Shown here: positions 5,758 to 34,392 of the stretch, piece after piece
Layout: every line of letters starts with the position of its first letter
How positions within the stretch are numbered: the first letter of the stretch is position 1
Source: Candidatus Fimimonas merdipullorum
GTDB taxonomy: Bacteria > Bacillota > Clostridia > Christensenellales > CAG-314
Length of the DNA stretch: 41,785 nucleotides
Assembly (NCBI GenBank): GCA_018713905.1
Contig: DVOC01000025.1
Location: 1 to 41,785 of the forward strand
Reading direction: 5' to 3'
Program-made: the position numbers and the translations under genes
Notes under the pieces: model-generated
What the model saw: only the letters and a program-made list of their open reading frames with translations
Database searches by the model: none
What the model was told of the DNA's origin: nothing

Positions 5758-6646
5758 GTGAAGCTTCTCCGATACGCCGCCTTTTTGTCTTTTGGCGGGG
5801 CGGCGCAAGGGAACTGCCCTCAAGTGACTTTGGCTTTTGCGTGAACGTGCCCTTTTCGCCCTGCGGTATTTTGTTTTTTGCGGTGGGGCGTGAATGCCCT
5901 TGCATTGTTGCGCCCTCCGCGCCCTGACTTACTCATCGCAGAGCACGTTTTGGCGACGGTTCGCCCTGCAAGAGTTGTTTCACCCGTGTCGGACGAGTAC
6001 GGACGCACTGTGGGCGAAATTAAATGCGTGCCGTTATGGAATGCGCGGAATTTTGCGCTGCTGTGGGTGTGCCTTGCCGTAGGCGCAGTGGCGGGGCAAA
6101 CCTTGCGCACAATGCCCTTGTACGTTTCGTGTGCTTGCAAGACGGAAAAATAATAATTTCCTCAAGCGAATGCGTTCGGGGCAACGCCGCAAGTGCATTG
6201 TCGGGAAAAACGCTCACAACGCCCCTCATTTATCGCTACTGCGAAGCGACAAACTAAAACCGACGGTTTTGAAAAAAATGATAAGGAGCATTTTATTCGG
6301 TGTTGACGAAGGGGCTACACCCGCCGTTATCGTACGTCGGAACCTCGACAAAAACGCCTTGCCCTTTCGCTATAAGCACAGCAATAATGAATTTTAGCAA
6401 GCATAGTTCTTTTATATTTATCGCTAAAATACGTAAAGGCGCGCAAACACTAACACGATACTGTTATTTTCCTCTTAAAATTGCATATAGTGAGCAAAAT
6501 CGAAAAAAAATTATAATTTTAGCAACTTTTTTTGAAAACCATCTATACAAAGCCGTTTTCCTGTGGTATAATGTATGCGGAATTATGCGGCGTCCGTAAG
6601 GGCGGACGTCGGCATGCATACGCCGTGCGGCAAAGGATGAAAGGTT

Positions 6647-8158
6647 ATGGAAAAAGTAGCATTGATCGATTTAGGTTCCAATACTGCCAGACTGGTGATT
6701 TACGACGTGCTGGACGGGGGATACTTTGTGGTGTCGGAAGATTACCACGAGGCTGTTCGTCTTGGCGAAACGGAGGCGGACGGCAACCTCAAGCAGACGC
6801 GCATAATGCAGGCGATAAACACCTTAAAGCTGTTCAAGGAAATTTGCATGATAAAGGGTGTGGACAAGGTGGTGGCAGTGGCTACCGCCGCCGTGCGCCG
6901 CGCAAACAACCAAAAGACCTTTCTTTCCGACGTGTATAACCAAACGGGCATACGCATTACGGTAGTTTCCGAGGATGAGGAAGCCAACTACGTGTATCAG
7001 GGCGTGATAAACTCTATGGATATTCCCCGCGGGCTGATAATGGAAATAGGCGGAGGCTCCACCAAGGTAGTTTACTACAACCGCCGCACCATATTGCACA
7101 CCAAGATATTCGAGTTCGGCGCCGTCACCCTTACCAACAAGTTCTTCATTCCCGGCAAAGCGCCCGAGCAATGCTCCGACGACATAGTAAACTACGTCAA
7201 GTCGCAGCTGGAACAGGTAGAGTGGTTCAAGGAGATAGATCCCGACACGCAGCTGATAGGCGTTGGGGGCAGCTGCCGCAATCTGGCGCGGATAGTGTGC
7301 AAAGTCAAAAAGTACCCGCTGGACATGGTGCACAACCTCAACATGCAGGTGGAGGACTTCAACTATATCTACAATATGATCCGCACGCTGGATCTGGACA
7401 AAAAACGCCGCATAAAGGGTTTAAGCTCTGCGCGCGCAGACGTATTCCCCGCCGCGCTGGCGTTTATCAAGGCGTTTGTAGATCACCTCGGGTTTACCAA
7501 AATCATTTCCTCCGGCAGCGGTCTGCGCGAGGGCGTAATGTTCAACTATGCCGTGCCGCAAACGTTGGAAAAGCCCATCAGCGACGTGCTCGGGCACAGC
7601 CTGCTGACGCTGGCGGCGCATATGGGGGTAAACATTCCCCACGCCGAACAGACCTTCAATTTGTGCGTGCAGCTGTTCAAGCAGCTGCGAGTGCTGCACA
7701 AGTTCCCCCGCGCATACGTAAAGGTGCTGCGCGTGGCGGCAATACTGCACGAGGCGGGCAGCAAGTTCAAATACTACAACAACGCCAAGCATACGGCGTA
7801 CATGATACTCAACAGCAATCTTTACGGTATTTCCCACAAGGATATCGTGCTTGCCGCCTACGTCACCGACGTCAACAACCGCGAGGAAGTCAACGTCACC
7901 GACTGGGCAAAGTACAACGGTATTTTGCAGCCGGAGGACGTAGAGGCGGTCAAAAAGCTCTCCGTCATTCTGCGCCTTGCCACCGCGCTGGATTACAGCA
8001 TGCGCGGCGTGGTGAAGGAGATAAACTGCGACGTGTTGGGGGACAGCGTAATTATGAAAATGGAGCTGGAGGGGGACGCCACTTTGGAAAAGAAGGCGGC
8101 AAGCCTTGTCACTCTGGACTTCAAAAAGGTGTTCCGCAAAAATCTGGAAATGTTCTGA
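6647..8158 (+). CDS. ppx: Ppx/GppA-type exopolyphosphatase/guanosine pentaphosphatase
   Basis: ALIDLGSNTARLVIYDV; VATAAVRRANN; GLIMEIGGGSTKVV; C-terminal HD-like region. Confidence 0.92.
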   Translation: MEKVALIDLGSNTARLVIYDVLDGGYFVVSEDYHEAVRLGETEADGNLKQTRIMQAINTLKLFKEICMIKGVDKVVAVATAAVRRANNQKTFLSDVYNQTGIRITVVSEDEEANYVYQGVINSMDIPRGLIMEIGGGSTKVVYYNRRTILHTKIFEFGAVTLTNKFFIPGKAPEQCSDDIVNYVKSQLEQVEWFKEIDPDTQLIGVGGSCRNLARIVCKVKKYPLDMVHNLNMQVEDFNYIYNMIRTLDLDKKRRIKGLSSARADVFPAALAFIKAFVDHLGFTKIISSGSGLREGVMFNYAVPQTLEKPISDVLGHSLLTLAAHMGVNIPHAEQTFNLCVQLFKQLRVLHKFPRAYVKVLRVAAILHEAGSKFKYYNNAKHTAYMILNSNLYGISHKDIVLAAYVTDVNNREEVNVTDWAKYNGILQPEDVEAVKKLSVILRLATALDYSMRGVVKEINCDVLGDSVIMKMELEGDATLEKKAASLVTLDFKKVFRKNLEMF

Positions 8159-8170
8159 TACAAAATTTTT

Positions 8171-8203
8171 GCCCGAGGCATTGCCTCGGGCTTTTTGTTT
8201 GCG
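8171..8203 (+). terminator. Rho-independent terminator
   Basis: gcccgaggcattgcctcgggctttttg. Confidence 0.85.
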
Positions 8204-8509
8204 TATTTTGCCTGCGGCGGCGTGTTGACGGCAGTTTTGCTTTAAGTCGCGCGCCGTAGCCGTTCCCTTGCCGCAAGCGGTGCGGAGCGTGCTTTTGCAG
8301 TTCACAACACTTTGGGTAACTTTGCTCTATGCGGCGGCTGTTTGCTCCTCTCGTCAGGGCAGGTTTCTGCCGCGAGTGTAAATTTGGCGCAAAAAATTTC
8401 GGAGTGTCTTTTACGCTCCTTCGACATTGCAAGAAAGGGTTTGCTTGTGCAAAAGCGGGGCGGCGTGCGAACAACCGGTATCGCATCTTGCAAAACAGGC
8501 GCATTCACA

Positions 8510-8543
8510 AAAAAACTGCGGCTGACGTGCCGCAGTTTTTTTT
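8510..8543 (-). terminator. Terminator (bidirectional) downstream of the large lipoprotein gene
   Basis: aaaaaaactgcggctgacgtgccgcagtttttttt, symmetric A/T flanks. Confidence 0.8.
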
Positions 8544-8659
8544 GAGTGTAGTGAGGGAGTTTTTGCACACGAATGCAGTTGTATCTTTGCGGTTCAGCGG
8601 TGTAAATTTGCCCTGCCTGTACCGCAAAACCTCATACGTATGCGTTTTTGCGTGACATT

Positions 8660-11600
8660 TTACCAAAACGTTTCGTTGGCTACCATTTGCGTTGCTTCGC
8701 CGTAAGGTGCGTCTTGCGCAAGTTGAAGGTTGACCGTCGCTGTCATCATGTCGGAAAGCAGCTTCATGTCGCCCTCCAAAGAAGTTATGAGGTATTTGTC
8801 CTGCTGTTGGCTGTGGCTCACGGTGACGTTGAGCATTCCGAGGTTGGCGTCAATGGGCGCAAGGTTCAGTTCCAGCATAAACTTGCCCTCTTGGTAACGG
8901 TAGTCCTTCAACACCTCCTCTATAGCGGCGGAAGAGGATTCCCCCTCCTTTGTGATCAGGTCGTTTATCCAGCCGCTGAAATTCACCATCTGCAAAACGT
9001 ACTGCTCCGGCTGTTGTGCAAACTGCTGCGCCGTCACCTTTTCGTAATAGTCCTTTTGCTTCATCTCTATGCCGAACAGTCCCTTTTTGACGTAGGAATT
9101 GCGTACTATGGTTATTTCCTGCGTCTGACCGTTGAAAAACAGATAGCTGTCGCCGCCGTAGTCGTTAAACGCCACGTTGACAAGGCTCAGCAGGCTTTGC
9201 TTGGGACGGGAAAGCTTTACGGTAAACGTCGTCACGTCCTCTTGCCCTTGCCGCCGCAAAATGTCCACCCGCGCCGAAAGCGTCATGTTAACCTTTTCCT
9301 TTATTATGCCTATGAGGGACAGATCCGCCTGCACGCTGCCGTCTATGGAAAATACGTCCTGCTGCGCCGTGTCCGCCACCGTTTTTAATAGCTGTTCGGC
9401 GCTGTCAAAGTTGATGTGGGCGTCCGCCTCGCCGTTTTTATCAAAGTAGGCTTGGATATTTTCAAACACGGGATACTCGCCTTCCTGAGCCTGCTCCGCC
9501 CGAACGGTCACGTCGTTCAGCCGCACGTTTATCGTGGCGGTGTGGGGGTTGTTTTCGCCGTAGGAGGCTTCCAGACAGTTGAGTATCAGCGTTTTGTCCG
9601 TGCCGCTTGCCGTCAACCGAATACTGCCAAGCTGGCTCAGCAGTACGCCGCCGTTTATCGTCAGGCTGAATTTGCCGTCGGCGTAACTTACCCTTTGCAG
9701 CACGGTGGAGTAGTCGGGCGAGCTTTCTCCCGCCGAGGTTATTGCCGAAAGCAGCTGTCCTATCTGCGGGATTATCTGCAAAAGTCTGTCCGTCTGCTGT
9801 GCGCAGTTGACTATGCTTTGCCACAGCACGGTGGCTCTTAGCGCGTCGTTGTAGGTGACGTACAGTCTGCCGTCGGCAAACACCGCCTCTAACGACGTTT
9901 CTTGCAGCGTCACGCCGTCCTTTATTTTGCGTAAAGCCAGTTGGGCATGCAGCGCAAAATCCTGCTTGTTTGCGGCGTTGTAGTAAAACTTCACGCAGGA
10001 GCCTTGCAAAATGGAGTACGTCACCGTGCCCGTGCCGTCCGTGGGCGTAACGTCCACAAAGCTTTCGCCAACGTCGAACGTCCACGAGTTGGTGTGTATC
10101 AGCGCGTCGATAGGCTGCAAAAAGTCGGCAATCACTTGGTCTATGGCAACGTAGTCGCCGTCAAAGCTGTCGAAGGTGGCGTTCTGACAGGGACGGGCGG
10201 TAAAGCGCATTTCGGCAAAACACACCGTTATGCTCACCTCTTCACCCAACAAAACCTCTATCTGCGCCTCCTTGACGGCAGCGGTAATTTTCAACGCGCC
10301 GTTCTGTTCCGAAAGGGAAAAATCTATCGGGTTTGTTTGCGCCGTCAGCGCCTTTGCCGTTACGCCGGCAAATTCCTTGACTATTTCATCAATTTTTTCC
10401 ACAAGCCGTTTTATCGCCGCCACGTCGGCGCTGACGGCTATGTCGTCACCCTTTTTGACGTACAGGGTGCTGTCGGTGTAGCAGGCGTTAAGCTGCCCCA
10501 GACGGAACAGGTATTTGTCGTTCAGCATATCGACGTCGGCATACAGCGTGTTGTTTTGGTCTATACATATTTCCAACTGCGTGTTCCATTGTCTTTGAGG
10601 CAGCAGCGGTGCGCTTGTTTCCGTCAGTTTCGCCTGCAACGAAAAGTCCTCGTTGCGGCAAAGCACCGTCGCGTCTGCCCCCAGCATCACCTCAAAGGGC
10701 AAAACGCCCGACGGAATAGTAATGCTGTCCTCCGTTATGCGCGCGCTCATCAGTATTTCCGCTATGCGCTGCGGCGACAGGTCTGCCTGCGCAAGCGTTT
10801 GCGAAAGTAGCGAAGACAGGTCGGGCAGGTTCAGCCCCGTTTGCGACAGGTCAACGGCCAGCGGCATACCGCTTATTTCCGCATACAGCCTGTTGTCTTC
10901 CAGCCAAAGGGAGGCGGGAGCCGTCGTCTGCCCTATGCCTATGCGGGCGTCGGCAAACAGCGGTGCGTTTGGCGCAAACACCGCGTTGCCAAAGGCGCGG
11001 TAAACGCCGTAGGTCAGGTCGAACTGCGCATTCACCGCCCCTTGCGCCAGCTGCGCAAGCTTGGGCAAAAGCTTTTTCGTAAGTGCGGCAACGTCGGCGT
11101 ATTCTCCTTCTGCAAGCTGCCGTGCAGCAAACTGCTCGGAGGGAGTCAGCGTTATCTGTTCTCCGCCCAAAAGGGCGCGGATACTCGGAATATATTTTCC
11201 GTCCCGCTCCGTCAGCACAAGGGATATTTCCCCCTGCGGCAAAGTTACCGTAAGGCTGTTTGGGGTAGTCGTGACGTTGTTTTGCAGCAAAAGCAGCAAG
11301 CTTTCGACGTCAAATTCAAAGCTTATGGACTTGCCCAGCAGTTGCAACGCCTCGCTTACCATATCGGGCAGGTCTTGTGTGTCTATTTTCAGATTGCTCT
11401 GCGGCAAATTCAGATATATCGTGCCTTCTTTCAGCACGGCAAGCATATCTTCCGTCTGCATGACGGCGCTCTGCGCTTTCAAATCTGCCGCCACGTCCGC
11501 AGTCATGCCCAATGCCTGCAACTTGGCATAAATTTTGCCGTCGACAACGTCTATGCCGTCAATTTCGGGATAGTTCTCCGTTTCCGGCACCTGCCACGGC

Positions 11601-12916
11601 TGCGAGGGGGTTATCGTCAGGCGGAAGTTTTCCGCCGTAATTTCCCCGCCGCAAAATTCGTAAGTCTGCTTTTTTATGCACGTTATTGTTATCTCCGCGT
11701 TCAACTCGGGTGTGCTGATCGGAATGGCGACGGTGCAGGTGTCGCCGTCGAAATGCGCCTGCAAGTCTATCTCTTTGCCGTCAAGCGCTCCAAGTAAATC
11801 CGCCGCTATGCTGCCGAGGCTTGCCTTAAACTGTCGGTATGCTACGTAAACTCCGCCGTCGACGTAACTTAATATGGCGTCACCCGCCTTGACGTGCGCC
11901 TCCGCAGTCATATTGGCAACGTCCATCTTTATTGCCGCCTGCGCCGAAACGCTTTTGCCGTCAATTGTGGCGGCTACGTCGGCGTAAAGCATACTTTGGG
12001 CGTACTTGCCGAAGCTTTGCATAAGCACTTCCGTAGCCGTGGGCTGTCTGTCCTGCTCCGTTTCTTCCGCCTGCATAAATTGCATAAAAAACTGCTGCTC
12101 GGGCAGTTCGCCGTCGTAGCCTATGTCGTAAAAGGTTTCCGTCAGGTTTTCCTTGCAGTTTATGCCGCCCAGCATGGGCACCTTGTATTCGCAGTCGGTG
12201 GAGAGCGTCTGAACGATAAAGTTCTTGTCCATTTCCACCGTAAGCTCCGCCTTCAAAAAGGTGGCAAAGCCGTCCATGCCGGAGTTGTTCCTCATTTCAT
12301 ACAGCACGTTGCAGGTGGCTGTTTGGCAGTCCAACACGTAGCGGAAGGTGTAGTATTCCCCCTGTTGGGAAACAAGCTCCGCTTCCGTTATCGTTTGGTC
12401 GTTCAAAACGTAGCCGCTCAGTCCGTCGTTGCGGTAGCCTATTTTCTCCGCCCACGCCTGCGCAGAGTGTTTTACGGCGGTGTTTTGCCACGTGACCTCG
12501 CTTGTGGACGTCACCTTCTGCGCACTGCGCGAAAGGTAGTTTTCTCCCCACACAAAAAGCTGTTCGCCGAATTTCACCAGCGCGCTGTGGCTGGTGGACT
12601 GTTTGAACACGTTGCCCTTGGACACGGTGCGCAACGCGCTTACGCTTTGCGTTATGCCCAGCGAAGTGGCGCTGCCCTCGGTAGAGCTTCTGAACCCGCC
12701 CGCGCGGGAAAGTTCGCCCGCCGCCACGTACAGACTTTCCCTGGCGGAAATGTCTGCAGGCGTGGCGTTGTCGGGCTTTGCCAAAAGCGTGCTTTGGCCG
12801 CCGTCTGCCGGAGGGGTAGAAGGAGGGGTATTTGATTTCCCGCAGCCGAACAGCAAAAATGCGCCTGTGGTAACAAGTATAACGGCAACAATGCCGCAGA
12901 GTATTTTTACTTTCAT
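8660..12916 (-). CDS. Giant predicted lipoprotein (1418 aa), unknown function, apparent tandem beta-rich domain repeats
   Basis: Signal peptide MKVKILCGIVAVILVTTGAFLLFGCGKSN with lipobox LFGC; long uninterrupted ORF; recurrent pattern 'xxLY(A/V)xxx...L..Ll..L..' followed by beta-strand-like segments. Confidence 0.9.
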   Translation of the reverse strand: MKVKILCGIVAVILVTTGAFLLFGCGKSNTPPSTPPADGGQSTLLAKPDNATPADISARESLYVAAGELSRAGGFRSSTEGSATSLGITQSVSALRTVSKGNVFKQSTSHSALVKFGEQLFVWGENYLSRSAQKVTSTSEVTWQNTAVKHSAQAWAEKIGYRNDGLSGYVLNDQTITEAELVSQQGEYYTFRYVLDCQTATCNVLYEMRNNSGMDGFATFLKAELTVEMDKNFIVQTLSTDCEYKVPMLGGINCKENLTETFYDIGYDGELPEQQFFMQFMQAEETEQDRQPTATEVLMQSFGKYAQSMLYADVAATIDGKSVSAQAAIKMDVANMTAEAHVKAGDAILSYVDGGVYVAYRQFKASLGSIAADLLGALDGKEIDLQAHFDGDTCTVAIPISTPELNAEITITCIKKQTYEFCGGEITAENFRLTITPSQPWQVPETENYPEIDGIDVVDGKIYAKLQALGMTADVAADLKAQSAVMQTEDMLAVLKEGTIYLNLPQSNLKIDTQDLPDMVSEALQLLGKSISFEFDVESLLLLLQNNVTTTPNSLTVTLPQGEISLVLTERDGKYIPSIRALLGGEQITLTPSEQFAARQLAEGEYADVAALTKKLLPKLAQLAQGAVNAQFDLTYGVYRAFGNAVFAPNAPLFADARIGIGQTTAPASLWLEDNRLYAEISGMPLAVDLSQTGLNLPDLSSLLSQTLAQADLSPQRIAEILMSARITEDSITIPSGVLPFEVMLGADATVLCRNEDFSLQAKLTETSAPLLPQRQWNTQLEICIDQNNTLYADVDMLNDKYLFRLGQLNACYTDSTLYVKKGDDIAVSADVAAIKRLVEKIDEIVKEFAGVTAKALTAQTNPIDFSLSEQNGALKITAAVKEAQIEVLLGEEVSITVCFAEMRFTARPCQNATFDSFDGDYVAIDQVIADFLQPIDALIHTNSWTFDVGESFVDVTPTDGTGTVTYSILQGSCVKFYYNAANKQDFALHAQLALRKIKDGVTLQETSLEAVFADGRLYVTYNDALRATVLWQSIVNCAQQTDRLLQIIPQIGQLLSAITSAGESSPDYSTVLQRVSYADGKFSLTINGGVLLSQLGSIRLTASGTDKTLILNCLEASYGENNPHTATINVRLNDVTVRAEQAQEGEYPVFENIQAYFDKNGEADAHINFDSAEQLLKTVADTAQQDVFSIDGSVQADLSLIGIIKEKVNMTLSARVDILRRQGQEDVTTFTVKLSRPKQSLLSLVNVAFNDYGGDSYLFFNGQTQEITIVRNSYVKKGLFGIEMKQKDYYEKVTAQQFAQQPEQYVLQMVNFSGWINDLITKEGESSSAAIEEVLKDYRYQEGKFMLELNLAPIDANLGMLNVTVSHSQQQDKYLITSLEGDMKLLSDMMTATVNLQLAQDAPYGEATQMVANETFW

Positions 12917-13128
12917 AATTCCTCTCTGTGACTTTCGTCGTCTGCAATTATATGTGATAAAGGTAAATTAAAAGTAAACTTACAATACTAAATTAAAGCC
13001 GGTATCCGCAAACTCACGTATTTTCGCCCCGATAAATCAAAGTGAACCTAAAAAAACATAAAAGAACTTTTATCCAGGCCGCAATTATTGTCCGACAAAT
13101 CTCGCCTGCGGCTCCGACACGCCCTTTG

Positions 13129-13290
13129 TGCCGTAAACTTACAAATATAATACGGTGTAAAGCAACCGGACAAAATACGGTGTAAAATAACCGGACAAAG
13201 TGCAGAGTAAACTTACAAACTGCGGTGTAAAACGACCGGACAAAATACGGTGTAAAACAGCTAAACAAAGTGCGGTCATATTTGTCCGTC
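13129..13290. repeat. Iteron-like imperfect tandem repeat array (25-bp units T(A/G)CGGTGTAAAA..ACCGGACAAA interleaved with ~20-bp GTAAACTTACAAA units)
   Basis: cggtgtaaa at 13153, 13178, 13223, 13248; ccggacaaa at 13166, 13191, 13236 (degenerate fourth near 13261); gtaaacttacaa at 12974, ~13133, ~13207; inverted tttgtccg near 13281. Confidence 0.85.
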
Positions 13291-13496
13291 AAGCGCTTCA
13301 GACGTAGTTCCGCCGACGTGACGTAAATACAAACTGCGACCGTCGGCAAAAGGGCAGTCGTCGATATTGTCTGTCGCGCATATTTCATCAACCGTCATTT
13401 TACTCTTTTTTACGCCCCTAAACGCCACCGCAACATTTGTCGAAGGGGTTTGCGGGGCGTGTTTGCGGTGATAAAATTGTGCGCAAGGAGGGCGTG

Positions 13497-14252
13497 ATGT
13501 CAAGGCGTATAGTGGTGACGGGCGGAAAGGGCGGCAGTGGCAAAACTACCGTATGCGCCAACTTGGGGCGCGCGCTGGCTCGCAGAGGGCTGCGGGTGCT
13601 GTTGGTGGACTTGGACATAGGTCTTAACAATCTCGACGTGGTCATGCAGGTGGAAAACAAGGTGGTGTACGACTTCGTGGACGTGTGCGAGGGCAGGTGC
13701 CGCGCTTCGCAGGCGCTGATAAGGGATGAGGACGAGCCTACGCTGTTTATTATGCCCAGCTGTCACACGGCAAAGCGGCAGATAACGGTGGACGTGGCAA
13801 ACAGGGTGGTGGACAAGCTTGCCGACAACTTCGACTTTGTGCTGATAGACTGTCCCGCAGGCATAGACAGCAGTTTTCGCCGCGCCGTAAGCTGCGCTGA
13901 CGAGGCTGTAGTGGTGGTAACTCCCCACCTGTCCGGCATACGCGACGCAGACAAAACCATTTCGCAGCTAAAAGACATGGCTGTGTACGTGGTGGTAAAC
14001 AGGGTGCGTGGCGACTTGGTGGCTTCGGGGGAAATGCTCAGCGTGTTCGAGGTGTTCAGCATACTCTCCGCCCGCCCCTTGGGGGACGTGCCGGAAAACG
14101 ACGACATCAACTGCGGCGGCAGAGGGTGCAAAAAGCCCTTCGACATACTTGCCGACAACCTGATAGGCGGCGGCGCAACGATATACGATTGCGTTTCCCG
14201 CTACAAGGGCTTTTGGGGAAAAATAAAAAGCAGACTTAAACGCAACGTCTGA
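13497..14252 (+). CDS. minD: Septum site-determining ATPase MinD
   Basis: Deviant Walker A VTGGKGGSGKTT; DLDIGLNNLDVVM; DCPAGIDSSFRRAV; C-terminal amphipathic tail YKGFWGKIKSRLKRNV. Start chosen at ATG 13497 behind aaggaggg rather than the ORF start 13437. Confidence 0.93.
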   Translation: MSRRIVVTGGKGGSGKTTVCANLGRALARRGLRVLLVDLDIGLNNLDVVMQVENKVVYDFVDVCEGRCRASQALIRDEDEPTLFIMPSCHTAKRQITVDVANRVVDKLADNFDFVLIDCPAGIDSSFRRAVSCADEAVVVVTPHLSGIRDADKTISQLKDMAVYVVVNRVRGDLVASGEMLSVFEVFSILSARPLGDVPENDDINCGGRGCKKPFDILADNLIGGGATIYDCVSRYKGFWGKIKSRLKRNV

Positions 14253-14263
14253 AAGGAGAATCA

Positions 14264-14500
14264 ATGAAAAACTGTTTATGCGACGGTCACAGCCAAAACT
14301 TTTGCAGGGCTAAAAACATGGTGCTTGGCGACAGCACGTCGTTAGACTGCGACGCCTTTTGCCGCGACGTAAAAGCCTTTTTGTCCCGCTACTTCGTGTT
14401 TTCGGGAGCGTCGGTAGAGGTGGTCAGGGGCAGCAGGTGCAAGCTGGTGATATGCGTCAACGTCACGGACGTAAGCAAAAGCCGCCGTCTGCCGTCATAA
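14264..14500 (+). CDS. Small Cys-rich protein, putative highly divergent MinE
   Basis: Directly downstream of minD; RAKNMVLGDSTSLDCDAFCRDVKAFLSRYFVFSGASVEVVRGSRCKLVICVNV follows the MinE layout (AKxRLxxVLxxDR...hxxIxxhhxxYhxh...VxVxxxxxxxxLxhxV). Confidence 0.55.
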   Translation: MKNCLCDGHSQNFCRAKNMVLGDSTSLDCDAFCRDVKAFLSRYFVFSGASVEVVRGSRCKLVICVNVTDVSKSRRLPS

Positions 14501-14544
14501 CGGCAGCGCGGCAAGCATATTTTATTCCGAACAGGAGGTGTAAG

Positions 14545-15135
14545 ATGAACTACGAAGGTATTCAGACGGCGGTGTGCGACGCGCAGGAAAGCGATTGGCT
14601 GGACGTTTCCTACTCCAAGCGTAAGTACGTCAAGCCGCAGCGGGCGGCAAAGGCGCTGCGGCTAAAAGGCAAGGTGTGGTACGTCGTGGCGGCGGTGGTG
14701 TGCGTTGCCGTCATGGCGTCGCTGCTGTTTTTGGACGGCGACTTCAAAAAGGAGGTGTTCGACGCGGTAAAAAGTGCGTCGGCAACGGTGTTCGGTGGTC
14801 AGCGCGAGCAAAACTATTTCGACGTGCCGGCAAACGTCACGCTGGAAAACGTTCAGGACGGCGTCATGACTTTCGGCGGCGGCAGGGCTGCGCTGTGCTT
14901 TTCCGCAGGGGAAGTAAGCGACGTTTCCGAAACGTCCGTCACGGTAAAAATGCAGAACGGCATTGCCGTCGTGTACCAAAATCTTACGGACGTATTGGTA
15001 AATTTGGGCGACGAGGTGCAGGTAAACTCTCTTTTGGGCAAGTATAAGGACAGCTTTTCCGCCTGCATATTGCAGGACGGCGAAGTGGTCACCGACGTGG
15101 TGGGCAGTCAGGGCAGGCTGGACTGGACAGTGTGA
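14545..15135 (+). CDS. spoIVFA: SpoIVFA-like membrane protein with degenerate LytM/M23 domain
   Basis: One TM (VWYVVAAVVCVAVMASLLF) then a LytM-like fold (VVYQNLTDVLVNLGDEVQVNSLLGKYKDSFSACILQDGEVVTDVV) lacking catalytic HxH; immediately precedes an M50 protease; SD aggaggtg before ATG 14545. Confidence 0.7.
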   Translation: MNYEGIQTAVCDAQESDWLDVSYSKRKYVKPQRAAKALRLKGKVWYVVAAVVCVAVMASLLFLDGDFKKEVFDAVKSASATVFGGQREQNYFDVPANVTLENVQDGVMTFGGGRAALCFSAGEVSDVSETSVTVKMQNGIAVVYQNLTDVLVNLGDEVQVNSLLGKYKDSFSACILQDGEVVTDVVGSQGRLDWTV

Positions 15136-16103
15136 AAATTCGAATAACCGCCGATTTCTGGTTGTTTATAGCGGCGGCGCTGGTGCTTAAAAAAGGCTAC
15201 CTCGCCGCCCTTTATACTGTGGCGGTGGTGCTGCACGAGTGCGCCCACTATTTCGTTGCCCGCAGGCTGTTTTATGCCTGCAAGGAGATACGTCTGGGCA
15301 TTTTCGGCGCCGTGCTCTACGGCGATTTTCGCGACGTATGCGGCACAGACAGAATAAAAATAGCCCTTGCGGGGCCTGCGTGCAACCTTTGTCTGTGCGC
15401 GTTGTGTCTGGCTGTGTGGTGGCTTTTGCCCGACAGCTACTACTTCACAAGGGATTTTTACTACTCCAATCTTACCATGGCGTGCGTCAACCTGCTGCCC
15501 TGCTATCCGCTGGACGGCGGCAGGGTGCTGTGCGGCGTAATAGAAAACAAACTTGGTTGCAAAGCCGTAAGGGTGACAAAGTTTCTCACCTTTGCGGTGT
15601 CGTCGGCAGCCTTTCTGATTTTCGTCATCTCCCTTTTCACCCCTCACAAGCTGTTCAACGTGGCGCTGTTTGCACTGGGAATCATGTTCGGAGCCGTGGC
15701 GGAAGGGGGCGACTGCTACGTAAAGACGGCGTTGCTGCACAGCGGTGCGGTATACAGGCGGGGTATGGAAAAAAAGACGTTGGTGTTTGACGGCGAAAGC
15801 CGCGTATGCGACGTGGCGCGGCGCATAAGGGGAAATTTTTTGTATTGTCTGGAGGTGGTGGACGCAGATATGCGCGTGCGCCGCCGTTACGACGTGGCAC
15901 AGCTGGAAAGCCTCGTGATAGACTGTCCCCGCGATATGACGCTTAACGACGCCGAACTATATCTTCGACAGCGGCAAAACCTCCTTGTCGCCGTTGAACC
16001 GCCTGTTGAACAGGCTGTAAAGGGCAAGGACAAACAACGCCGTCGCCCACACCAGCAGATACAGCGGAAAAAAGGAAAAGAACGCCATGACGGCGGTGAA
16101 TAA
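15132..16103 (+). CDS. spoIVFB: SpoIVFB-like M50 intramembrane (site-2) metalloprotease
   Basis: HExxH in VVLHECAHYFVARR; NLLPCYPLDGGRVL second motif; CBS-like C-terminus. The C-terminal ~49 codons overlap an opposing ORF. Confidence 0.88.
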   Translation: MKIRITADFWLFIAAALVLKKGYLAALYTVAVVLHECAHYFVARRLFYACKEIRLGIFGAVLYGDFRDVCGTDRIKIALAGPACNLCLCALCLAVWWLLPDSYYFTRDFYYSNLTMACVNLLPCYPLDGGRVLCGVIENKLGCKAVRVTKFLTFAVSSAAFLIFVISLFTPHKLFNVALFALGIMFGAVAEGGDCYVKTALLHSGAVYRRGMEKKTLVFDGESRVCDVARRIRGNFLYCLEVVDADMRVRRRYDVAQLESLVIDCPRDMTLNDAELYLRQRQNLLVAVEPPVEQAVKGKDKQRRRPHQQIQRKKGKERHDGGE

Positions 16104-16739
16104 CGCCGAGGATAAATACCAGCGGAAGCGCTTTCGGCAAAAGGCGTAGTTGGCGGCGACGGAAGCCTTTTTGCGTTTGACGGGGCGCATAAGGGGCAGC
16201 TTATCCGCTTGCGAAAACAGACTGTAAGTCTGCCGCGCGTCAAAAAAGCACACGTCAACGTGCTGTCTTATCTGCTCAAGCAGGGCGTTTTCGCAGTCAA
16301 GACCGAACACCCACATTTTGCCGCACTCTTCTGCGGCGGTTTTCACCGCCTCTTTGCGCAGGCTGTCGAAACAAATTTTTCTTTCAAACAGCAAGGATAC
16401 GAAAATTTTTTCCTCTCTCCGCACGACAAGGTTGTCCGCTTCCGCGCGCACGATATCACAGCGGAAAAATTTCAGCATTTCCGCAAATAATTCTGCGTTG
16501 TGCGCATTGAATTGCAAAAAGTCGGCAAAGGCGGCGATCTTTTCCTTCTCTGCCCTTTTCAGACGTTTTTTTCTTTCCGCGCGGGAAAACACCGCAAATA
16601 TCAGGTATCCGCCGCACAGCGTTATTACGGAGGCGGCGGCAAGCGCCGCAAGTGCGTTTTCCAGACAGTACGCCGCCCATGCGTAGGAAAGCAGAAACAG
16701 CATTACGGTGCAAAGAATATCGTTTATTATAACAGCCAT
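15957..16739 (-). CDS. Predicted integral membrane protein, unknown function
   Basis: MAVIINDILCTVMLFLLSYAWAAYCLENALAALAAASVITLCGGYLIFAVF..., cytosolic middle, C-terminal TM hairpin LFTAVMAFFSFFPLYLLVWATALFVLALYSLF. Start 16739 preferred over ORF start 17027, which overlaps nadD. Confidence 0.65.
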   Translation of the reverse strand: MAVIINDILCTVMLFLLSYAWAAYCLENALAALAAASVITLCGGYLIFAVFSRAERKKRLKRAEKEKIAAFADFLQFNAHNAELFAEMLKFFRCDIVRAEADNLVVRREEKIFVSLLFERKICFDSLRKEAVKTAAEECGKMWVFGLDCENALLEQIRQHVDVCFFDARQTYSLFSQADKLPLMRPVKRKKASVAANYAFCRKRFRWYLSSALFTAVMAFFSFFPLYLLVWATALFVLALYSLFNRRFNGDKEVLPLSKI

Positions 16740-33537: not shown

Positions 33538-34392
33538 GCTTCCGCGCCGCCTCTTCAACAGAGCGTTCGTCACGGTTTTTCAGCAACGTATTGCATTTTT
33601 TTGTGCCATTTGTTGCTTACAGGCGCGGTAAATACGCTGCAACAACGGTGTTGACGGGCGTTACCCGCCTTTGCCGCTCTTTCCCGTCTTTTTGCTCGTT
33701 CGGTTTCTCTCGGTGCCGCAACGTGCGGAAAGGCGTTTCCGCGTTTTTATCCGGCAAACGGCGCAGGAGGGGGTGCCTTTCGGCATTTGCTTCTTGCTCT
33801 CTACGCAGGCGCTCGTCTGTGTCGCACCCGCTTCGGGGCGACGGCGTTCTTCATTTTTGACGGTAAGCCTTGTCGTGCGCAGCCTTGTCGTTTTGGCAGC
33901 ATTGTTTTTCCGCGGTGTATTTTATCCGCCGTGCGTCTTCGTATGCGGCATAAAAAAAGTTCATATAAATCTTTCAAAACGATACGCAGCCTCTGTGTTA
34001 TTTTAACCGTTTCAATCGAGATATATGAACTGCTTATATTATGCGCCGCAAAAGGCGTTATATTCACGTTTCGGAAATTTTTTTGCGTTATTTTATTTTG
34101 CACGTTTTGTCTGTTTTTTGCCTTACGCTTTTTTCCTGTTTTTTATTGTGTTTTTGTCGGTATGCTCATTGTGCTTTTTGCAAAACGCCGTGTTAAATTG
34201 CCCGCAGTCTGTCGTTTCGCGTTGAGCTTTGCAATGCCTGCGGCGGCTGTGTTTTGTCGTGCTCTGTTGCCGCAACGACTTTTTTGCCCGACGTTTTCGC
34301 CGTTCAAAGGCACATTCGCACGGACGGCGTTTTTCGGCGTAACAAATATTTATTACGTTATACGTATTTACTCTCCCGTGCAAGGCTGTCGC

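Follow-up and report, generated by a model that had tools for sequence, protein, structure and literature searches.

LolA-type domains are familiar as stand-alone carriers, which ferry lipids or lipoproteins to an outer membrane. LolA/LolB and LppX/LprG/LprF consist of one such domain and RseB of two, and these proteins and MucB work in diderms or mycobacteria, outside the cytoplasm and tethered to a membrane. In monoderms, the LolA/RseB-fold proteins GerS of C. difficile and SsdC of B. subtilis both act in sporulation; GerS binds CwlD, and its lipid binding is unproven (PMC8496864, PMC7769602). Long lipid bridges are also already known (PMC10943745, PMC6791001).

Here we describe a giant protein that compares with each of these groups in part. 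It resembles LolA/LolB, LppX/LprG/LprF and RseB/MucB in predicted fold, in the order of strands and helices, in the hydrophobic face and in its predicted tethering outside the cytoplasm, but it has about seven to many domains per chain, comes from a probably monoderm cell and shows no detectable sequence similarity to them. GerS and SsdC share with it a LolA/RseB-type fold in a monoderm spore former, but they are much smaller, are not described as tandem arrays in the literature consulted and gave no sequence match to the giant. VPS13, ATG2 and bacterial AsmA/TamB/YhdP resemble the giant in their great length, their beta-rich make-up, the anchorage of one end and the strongly two-faced strands; Foldseek points to a different fold, and the giant probably has no outer membrane as a target.

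The window analyzed is the whole 41,785-nucleotide stretch of contig DVOC01000025.1 from Candidatus Fimimonas merdipullorum. On its minus strand we identified an ATG-to-stop open reading frame of 1418 aa, which is the largest in the window, as the first-pass annotation had stated. That annotation also placed the gene alone on its strand, and indeed all neighbors with Pfam assignments lie on the plus strand. However, the terminator it gave to the gene was not recovered; positions 8400-8800 contain 0 terminator-like sites, and a rho-independent terminator was rejected. An Rfam search of positions 6000-16200 gave no match, and a phage origin was also rejected (tblastn without match). Upstream of the gene, we observed about five degenerate 25-bp tandem repeats (TTTTACACCGTATTTTGTCCGG...) at positions 13142-13276, with two exact 22-bp copies against 0 expected, which are possibly regulator sites. 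A 25-bp array that looks similar lies at positions 34091-34147.

Searched alone, the 1418-aa protein gave zero matches in Pfam, NCBIfam and PDB sequences, and family alignments of the N-terminal part and of the repeat gave zero matches in Pfam and PDB. Thus no curated Pfam or NCBIfam profile and no PDB sequence placed it in the LolA-fold superfamily, and the earlier statement that it belongs to no recognized family held.

The predicted structure gave a different result. AlphaFold2 was run on aa 1-730 (alignment of 20 sequences, mean pLDDT 72, pTM 0.47) and on aa 715-1418 (alignment of 12 sequences, mean pLDDT 71, pTM 0.51), and the models contained about seven successive repeated units in the order helix, 6 strands, helix, 5 strands (H-6E-H-5E), with the leading helix absent from some. 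When both halves were compared with the PDB by Foldseek, all listed matches with a probability of at least 0.96 were LolA-superfamily folds: RseB/MucB, LolA, LolB, LprG and LprF for the first half, and LolA3, LolA, VioE and DUF1329 for the second. VioE and DUF1329 also adopt this fold. The TMt values for LprG and LolA reached 0.53-0.57. Among the matches of lower probability were other beta-rich proteins (DPP4, DDB1, TbpB, sliding clamps), and OspA scored 0.89.

We found that the predicted strands are strongly two-faced, with a mean face difference of 3.13 versus 1.81 +/- 0.16 in shuffled controls (about 8.5 SD) and an AVILMFC share of 71% on one face versus 22% on the other; two-faced strands alone would also suit a solid core. 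As modeled, the units show the N-terminal helix and the antiparallel half-barrel of about 11 strands with an intervening helix that define the LolA superfamily at the level of fold. The models argue strongly for this fold in domain 1 and moderately in domains 2-7, whose structure and packing are uncertain because the alignments are small and the pLDDT and pTM values limited. The earlier idea of tandem LolA/LppX-like domains is therefore borne out by AlphaFold2 and Foldseek at these two strengths. The features are listed in Table 1. In relatives of the protein (for example L067:13583-15856 and L068:11259-13571), the C-terminal domain carries a zinc-ribbon-like CxxC...C..C insertion, although the protein is apparently extracytoplasmic.

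Table 1. Features of the giant gene and its predicted domains (window positions; domain boundaries in aa)
Feature	Position	Strand	Basis
Tandem LolA-fold protein gene (predicted fold), 1418 aa	8660..12916	-	ORF and translation; homologs in most congeners
Membrane anchor at the N-terminus, aa 1-26, with a lipobox-like LFGC in window protein only	12839..12916	-	sequence and congener alignment
Domain 1, aa ~53-265, LolA-like, best predicted, mostly pLDDT >90	12122..12760	-	AF2, Foldseek; most conserved part of the family
Domain 2, aa ~290-440, LolA-like, approximate boundaries	11597..12049	-	AF2 secondary structure
Domain 3, aa ~445-595, begins a repeat unit	11132..11584	-	repeat profile (aa 473-706) and AF2
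Domain 4, aa ~600-770, approximate boundaries	10607..11119	-	repeat profile and AF2
Domain 5, aa ~775-910, first half of second repeat unit	10187..10594	-	repeat profile (aa 793-1121) and AF2
Domain 6, aa ~920-1145, approximate boundaries	9482..10159	-	repeat profile and AF2
Domain 7, aa ~1150-1405, C-terminal, without the CxxC..C..C insertion of relatives	8702..9469	-	AF2, alignment, weak repeat match

The recurring turn motif reported in the first-pass annotation was reproduced: the protein contains 8 copies of '[DEGN][GNSTD]x[LIVA][YF][AVLIC]', whereas 2000 shuffles gave 0.85 on average and 5 at most. Its tandem repeats were found to be weak within the 1418-aa protein alone, where aa 1039-1134 and 1300-1400 (E ~1e-7) form the sole detectable self-similar pair, but unmistakable in relatives, where the period of about 375 aa corresponds to two units of about 185 aa. 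This double-domain unit of about 360 aa is carried in tandem by congeners in 2 to at least 7 copies. By its profile, the window protein, the congener G009 and the sister genus have about 2 copies each, other congeners have 3-4 and several have 6; G019, whose contig stops within the gene, has at least 7. In the window protein, the profile matched aa 473-706 (10802-11497, E=1.4e-19) and aa 793-1121 (9515-10540, E=5.2e-56), and weakly 8771-9187 (E=3.6e-5). The two ends of much longer relatives match residues 1-~705 and ~760-1418 of the window protein, and what differs among these proteins is the number of units in between.

A tree of 85 units revealed that the nearest relative lies in another protein for 81 of them, mostly at the matching position; the 4 exceptions represent a single block duplication in G019. 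This indicates that the units are old, were added blockwise and have been kept distinct, unlike homogenized spacer or adhesin repeats.

A single-protein search of genome contigs gave no match, and a profile search matched congeneric genomes. The N-terminal profile matched 21 of 25 genomes within the genus, 2/2 of one sister genus and none of the other sampled family members. The remaining 4 congeners had no match, so members of the genus can do without the gene. The window protein is a short form, and the versions of congeners measure 1,800-3,400 aa. Within the order, the repeat profile matched 49 of 297 genomes, spread over seven families, with open frames of up to 6,238 aa; outside the order, a class-wide sample (n=391) gave one genome with a weak match (E=2e-6). 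The order sample has its longest version in L132 (G232:C3), where the repeat matched at least 16 times in an open frame of about 6,200 aa. In two genomes of about 1 Mb (L137:4993-11745, L150:5164-11403), the giant is apparently split in two genes, and a separate gene of about 400 aa, adjoining the repeat gene, matches the start of the giants. The named congeners are uncultured Clostridia MAGs, many labeled 'Lapin'. Two Clostridia MAGs (L068, L069) stand in public records under the myxobacterial genus name as 'Corallococcus sp.', apparently after 'Corallococcus sp. CAG:1435'; this is likely a naming error.

The window protein and its relatives begin with a positively charged segment followed by a hydrophobic stretch. 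The lipobox proposed earlier would be an LFGC, with F at -2, but the Cys is missing in all 19 aligned congeneric proteins, which keep the transmembrane anchor. Thus the norm of the family is a transmembrane signal anchor, and the lipoprotein label fails for the family and is doubtful for the window protein. Omp85 was absent from 41/41 family genomes (7 controls matched), and no POTRA domain was found in the source genome. These absences argue against an outer membrane, with which LolA proper, the lipoprotein chaperone, operates alongside LolCDE. Because Omp85 is lacking, the source clostridium is probably a monoderm, as the first-pass annotation had presumed of the cell. Its genome contains Spo0A and SpoIVA.

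In most congeners, the genes directly upstream of the giant encode a response regulator, a histidine kinase, a secreted endonuclease I of variable length with Big_2 repeats, and a lipoprotein of about 200 aa. This genus-conserved set, often with the giant next to it, was observed at L037:13678-18061 and equivalents. In the window and in G009, the giant lies between Ppx/GppA and MinD, and the nuclease and lipoprotein are found elsewhere without it. Conservation of the neighborhood with minD, suggested earlier, was therefore rejected beyond this one congener. Relatives beyond the genus share no neighborhood with these loci. The small upstream lipoprotein was considered as a stand-alone LolA-type partner, and profile comparison gave no support.

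Taken together, we lean, by a modest degree of confidence, towards the giant being a membrane-tethered extracytoplasmic array of about seven LolA-superfamily domains that handles lipid-like ligands. Each domain would be a half-barrel, hydrophobic on one face and fitted with lid helices, and the window protein would be the short form in a family that lengthens by insertion of double-domain units of about 360 aa. Each domain may hold a hydrophobic ligand, such as a lipid, a lipid-linked precursor, a lipopeptide or a fatty or bile acid. The string would act beyond the cytoplasmic membrane, within the wall or between the membranes of the forespore, as a multi-site lipid-handling scaffold; ligand handover from domain to domain would be the least certain step.

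The computed part of this explanation comprises the predicted fold of domain 1, the way the repeats are arranged and conserved by position, the anchor at the N-terminus and the confinement of the family to one order. The explanation is consistent with the repeated AlphaFold2 units, the Foldseek matches to the LolA superfamily, the two-faced strands and the 81/85 positional units, and also with the conserved positive and transmembrane anchor, the lack of Omp85 and POTRA and the presence of Spo0A and SpoIVA. Against it, the conserved upstream genes of congeners encode a nuclease, a lipoprotein and a two-component system, and no lipid gene is linked to the giant. By analogy with GerS, LolA folds can also serve as non-lipid scaffolds.

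If the LolA domains docked into one continuous hydrophobic channel, the protein would be a bridge-like conduit that works like VPS13/AsmA, through which lipids would pass between the membrane and the cell surface, or between the membranes of mother cell and forespore. The length of the string, its amphipathic strands, the anchorage at one end, the retention of position-specific units and the lengthening by whole double domains would suit such a conduit, but we consider it unlikely. The first-pass annotation had also named bridge-type domains; no RBG/AsmA/VPS13-type structure occurs among the listed Foldseek matches, and thus a continuous bridge groove is not evident. Furthermore, a spread of 1.4-3.4 kaa within one genus would be surprising if the protein spanned a gap of fixed width, and a second-membrane or ABC partner was not found. 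A conduit for lipids or lipid-linked polymers made of tandem LolA domains, in monoderm spore-forming Clostridia without an outer membrane, is a tentative idea.

It is similarly doubtful that the string is a sporulation scaffold in the envelope of the engulfed forespore, binding cortex or coat enzymes in the manner of GerS or SsdC, which are its precedents (PMC8496864, PMC7769602). The repeat-bearing genomes of the order sample contain Spo0A in 49/49 and SpoIVA in 47/49 cases. However, Spo0A occurs in 266/297 and SpoIVA in 246/297 genomes of the whole order, yet most genomes have no giant; this co-occurrence is weak support because most of the order has both genes anyway. In addition, the gene of congeners adjoins a secreted nuclease and a two-component system. 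These readings overlap, and both the bridge and the sporulation scaffold could be special cases of the lipid-handling array.

We also give a low probability to a structural stalk or adhesin, in which the fold would be a rigid spacer that lifts an end domain past the wall and the number of repeats would tune its length. The variable number of tandem repeats, the surface location and the fast divergence (about 30% identity within the genus) would fit. But 81/85 units keep their positional identity and are not homogenized, the N-terminal anchor is conserved with no wall-sorting signal noticed at the C-terminus, and conservation is highest in domain 1, next to the membrane, rather than at the tip. 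A plain stalk is disfavored because of this positional conservation and the conserved membrane-proximal domain. A secreted-nuclease or nutrient-capture island that unites the two-component system, endonuclease I with Big_2 domains, lipoprotein and giant is very improbable: the gene order is conserved in most congeners, but the nuclease and lipoprotein persist in the window genome and G009 with the giant elsewhere, and the linkage is absent from distant relatives.

We searched the literature for tandem LolA arrays and found no description; this search was limited and is not proof of absence. The giants look like an undescribed, order-wide family that Pfam and NCBIfam do not name, although its fold superfamily is known. 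Probably single-membrane gut Clostridia thus appear to string many LolA-type domains into one giant anchored protein. This raises the question of which hydrophobic cargo moves through the monoderm wall or the forespore space, and whether the string of grooves acts as a conduit. If the conduit reading were true, it would represent an independent solution to long-range lipid movement without an outer membrane. The definition of the family would also allow many giant 'hypothetical proteins' in gut metagenomes to be labeled.
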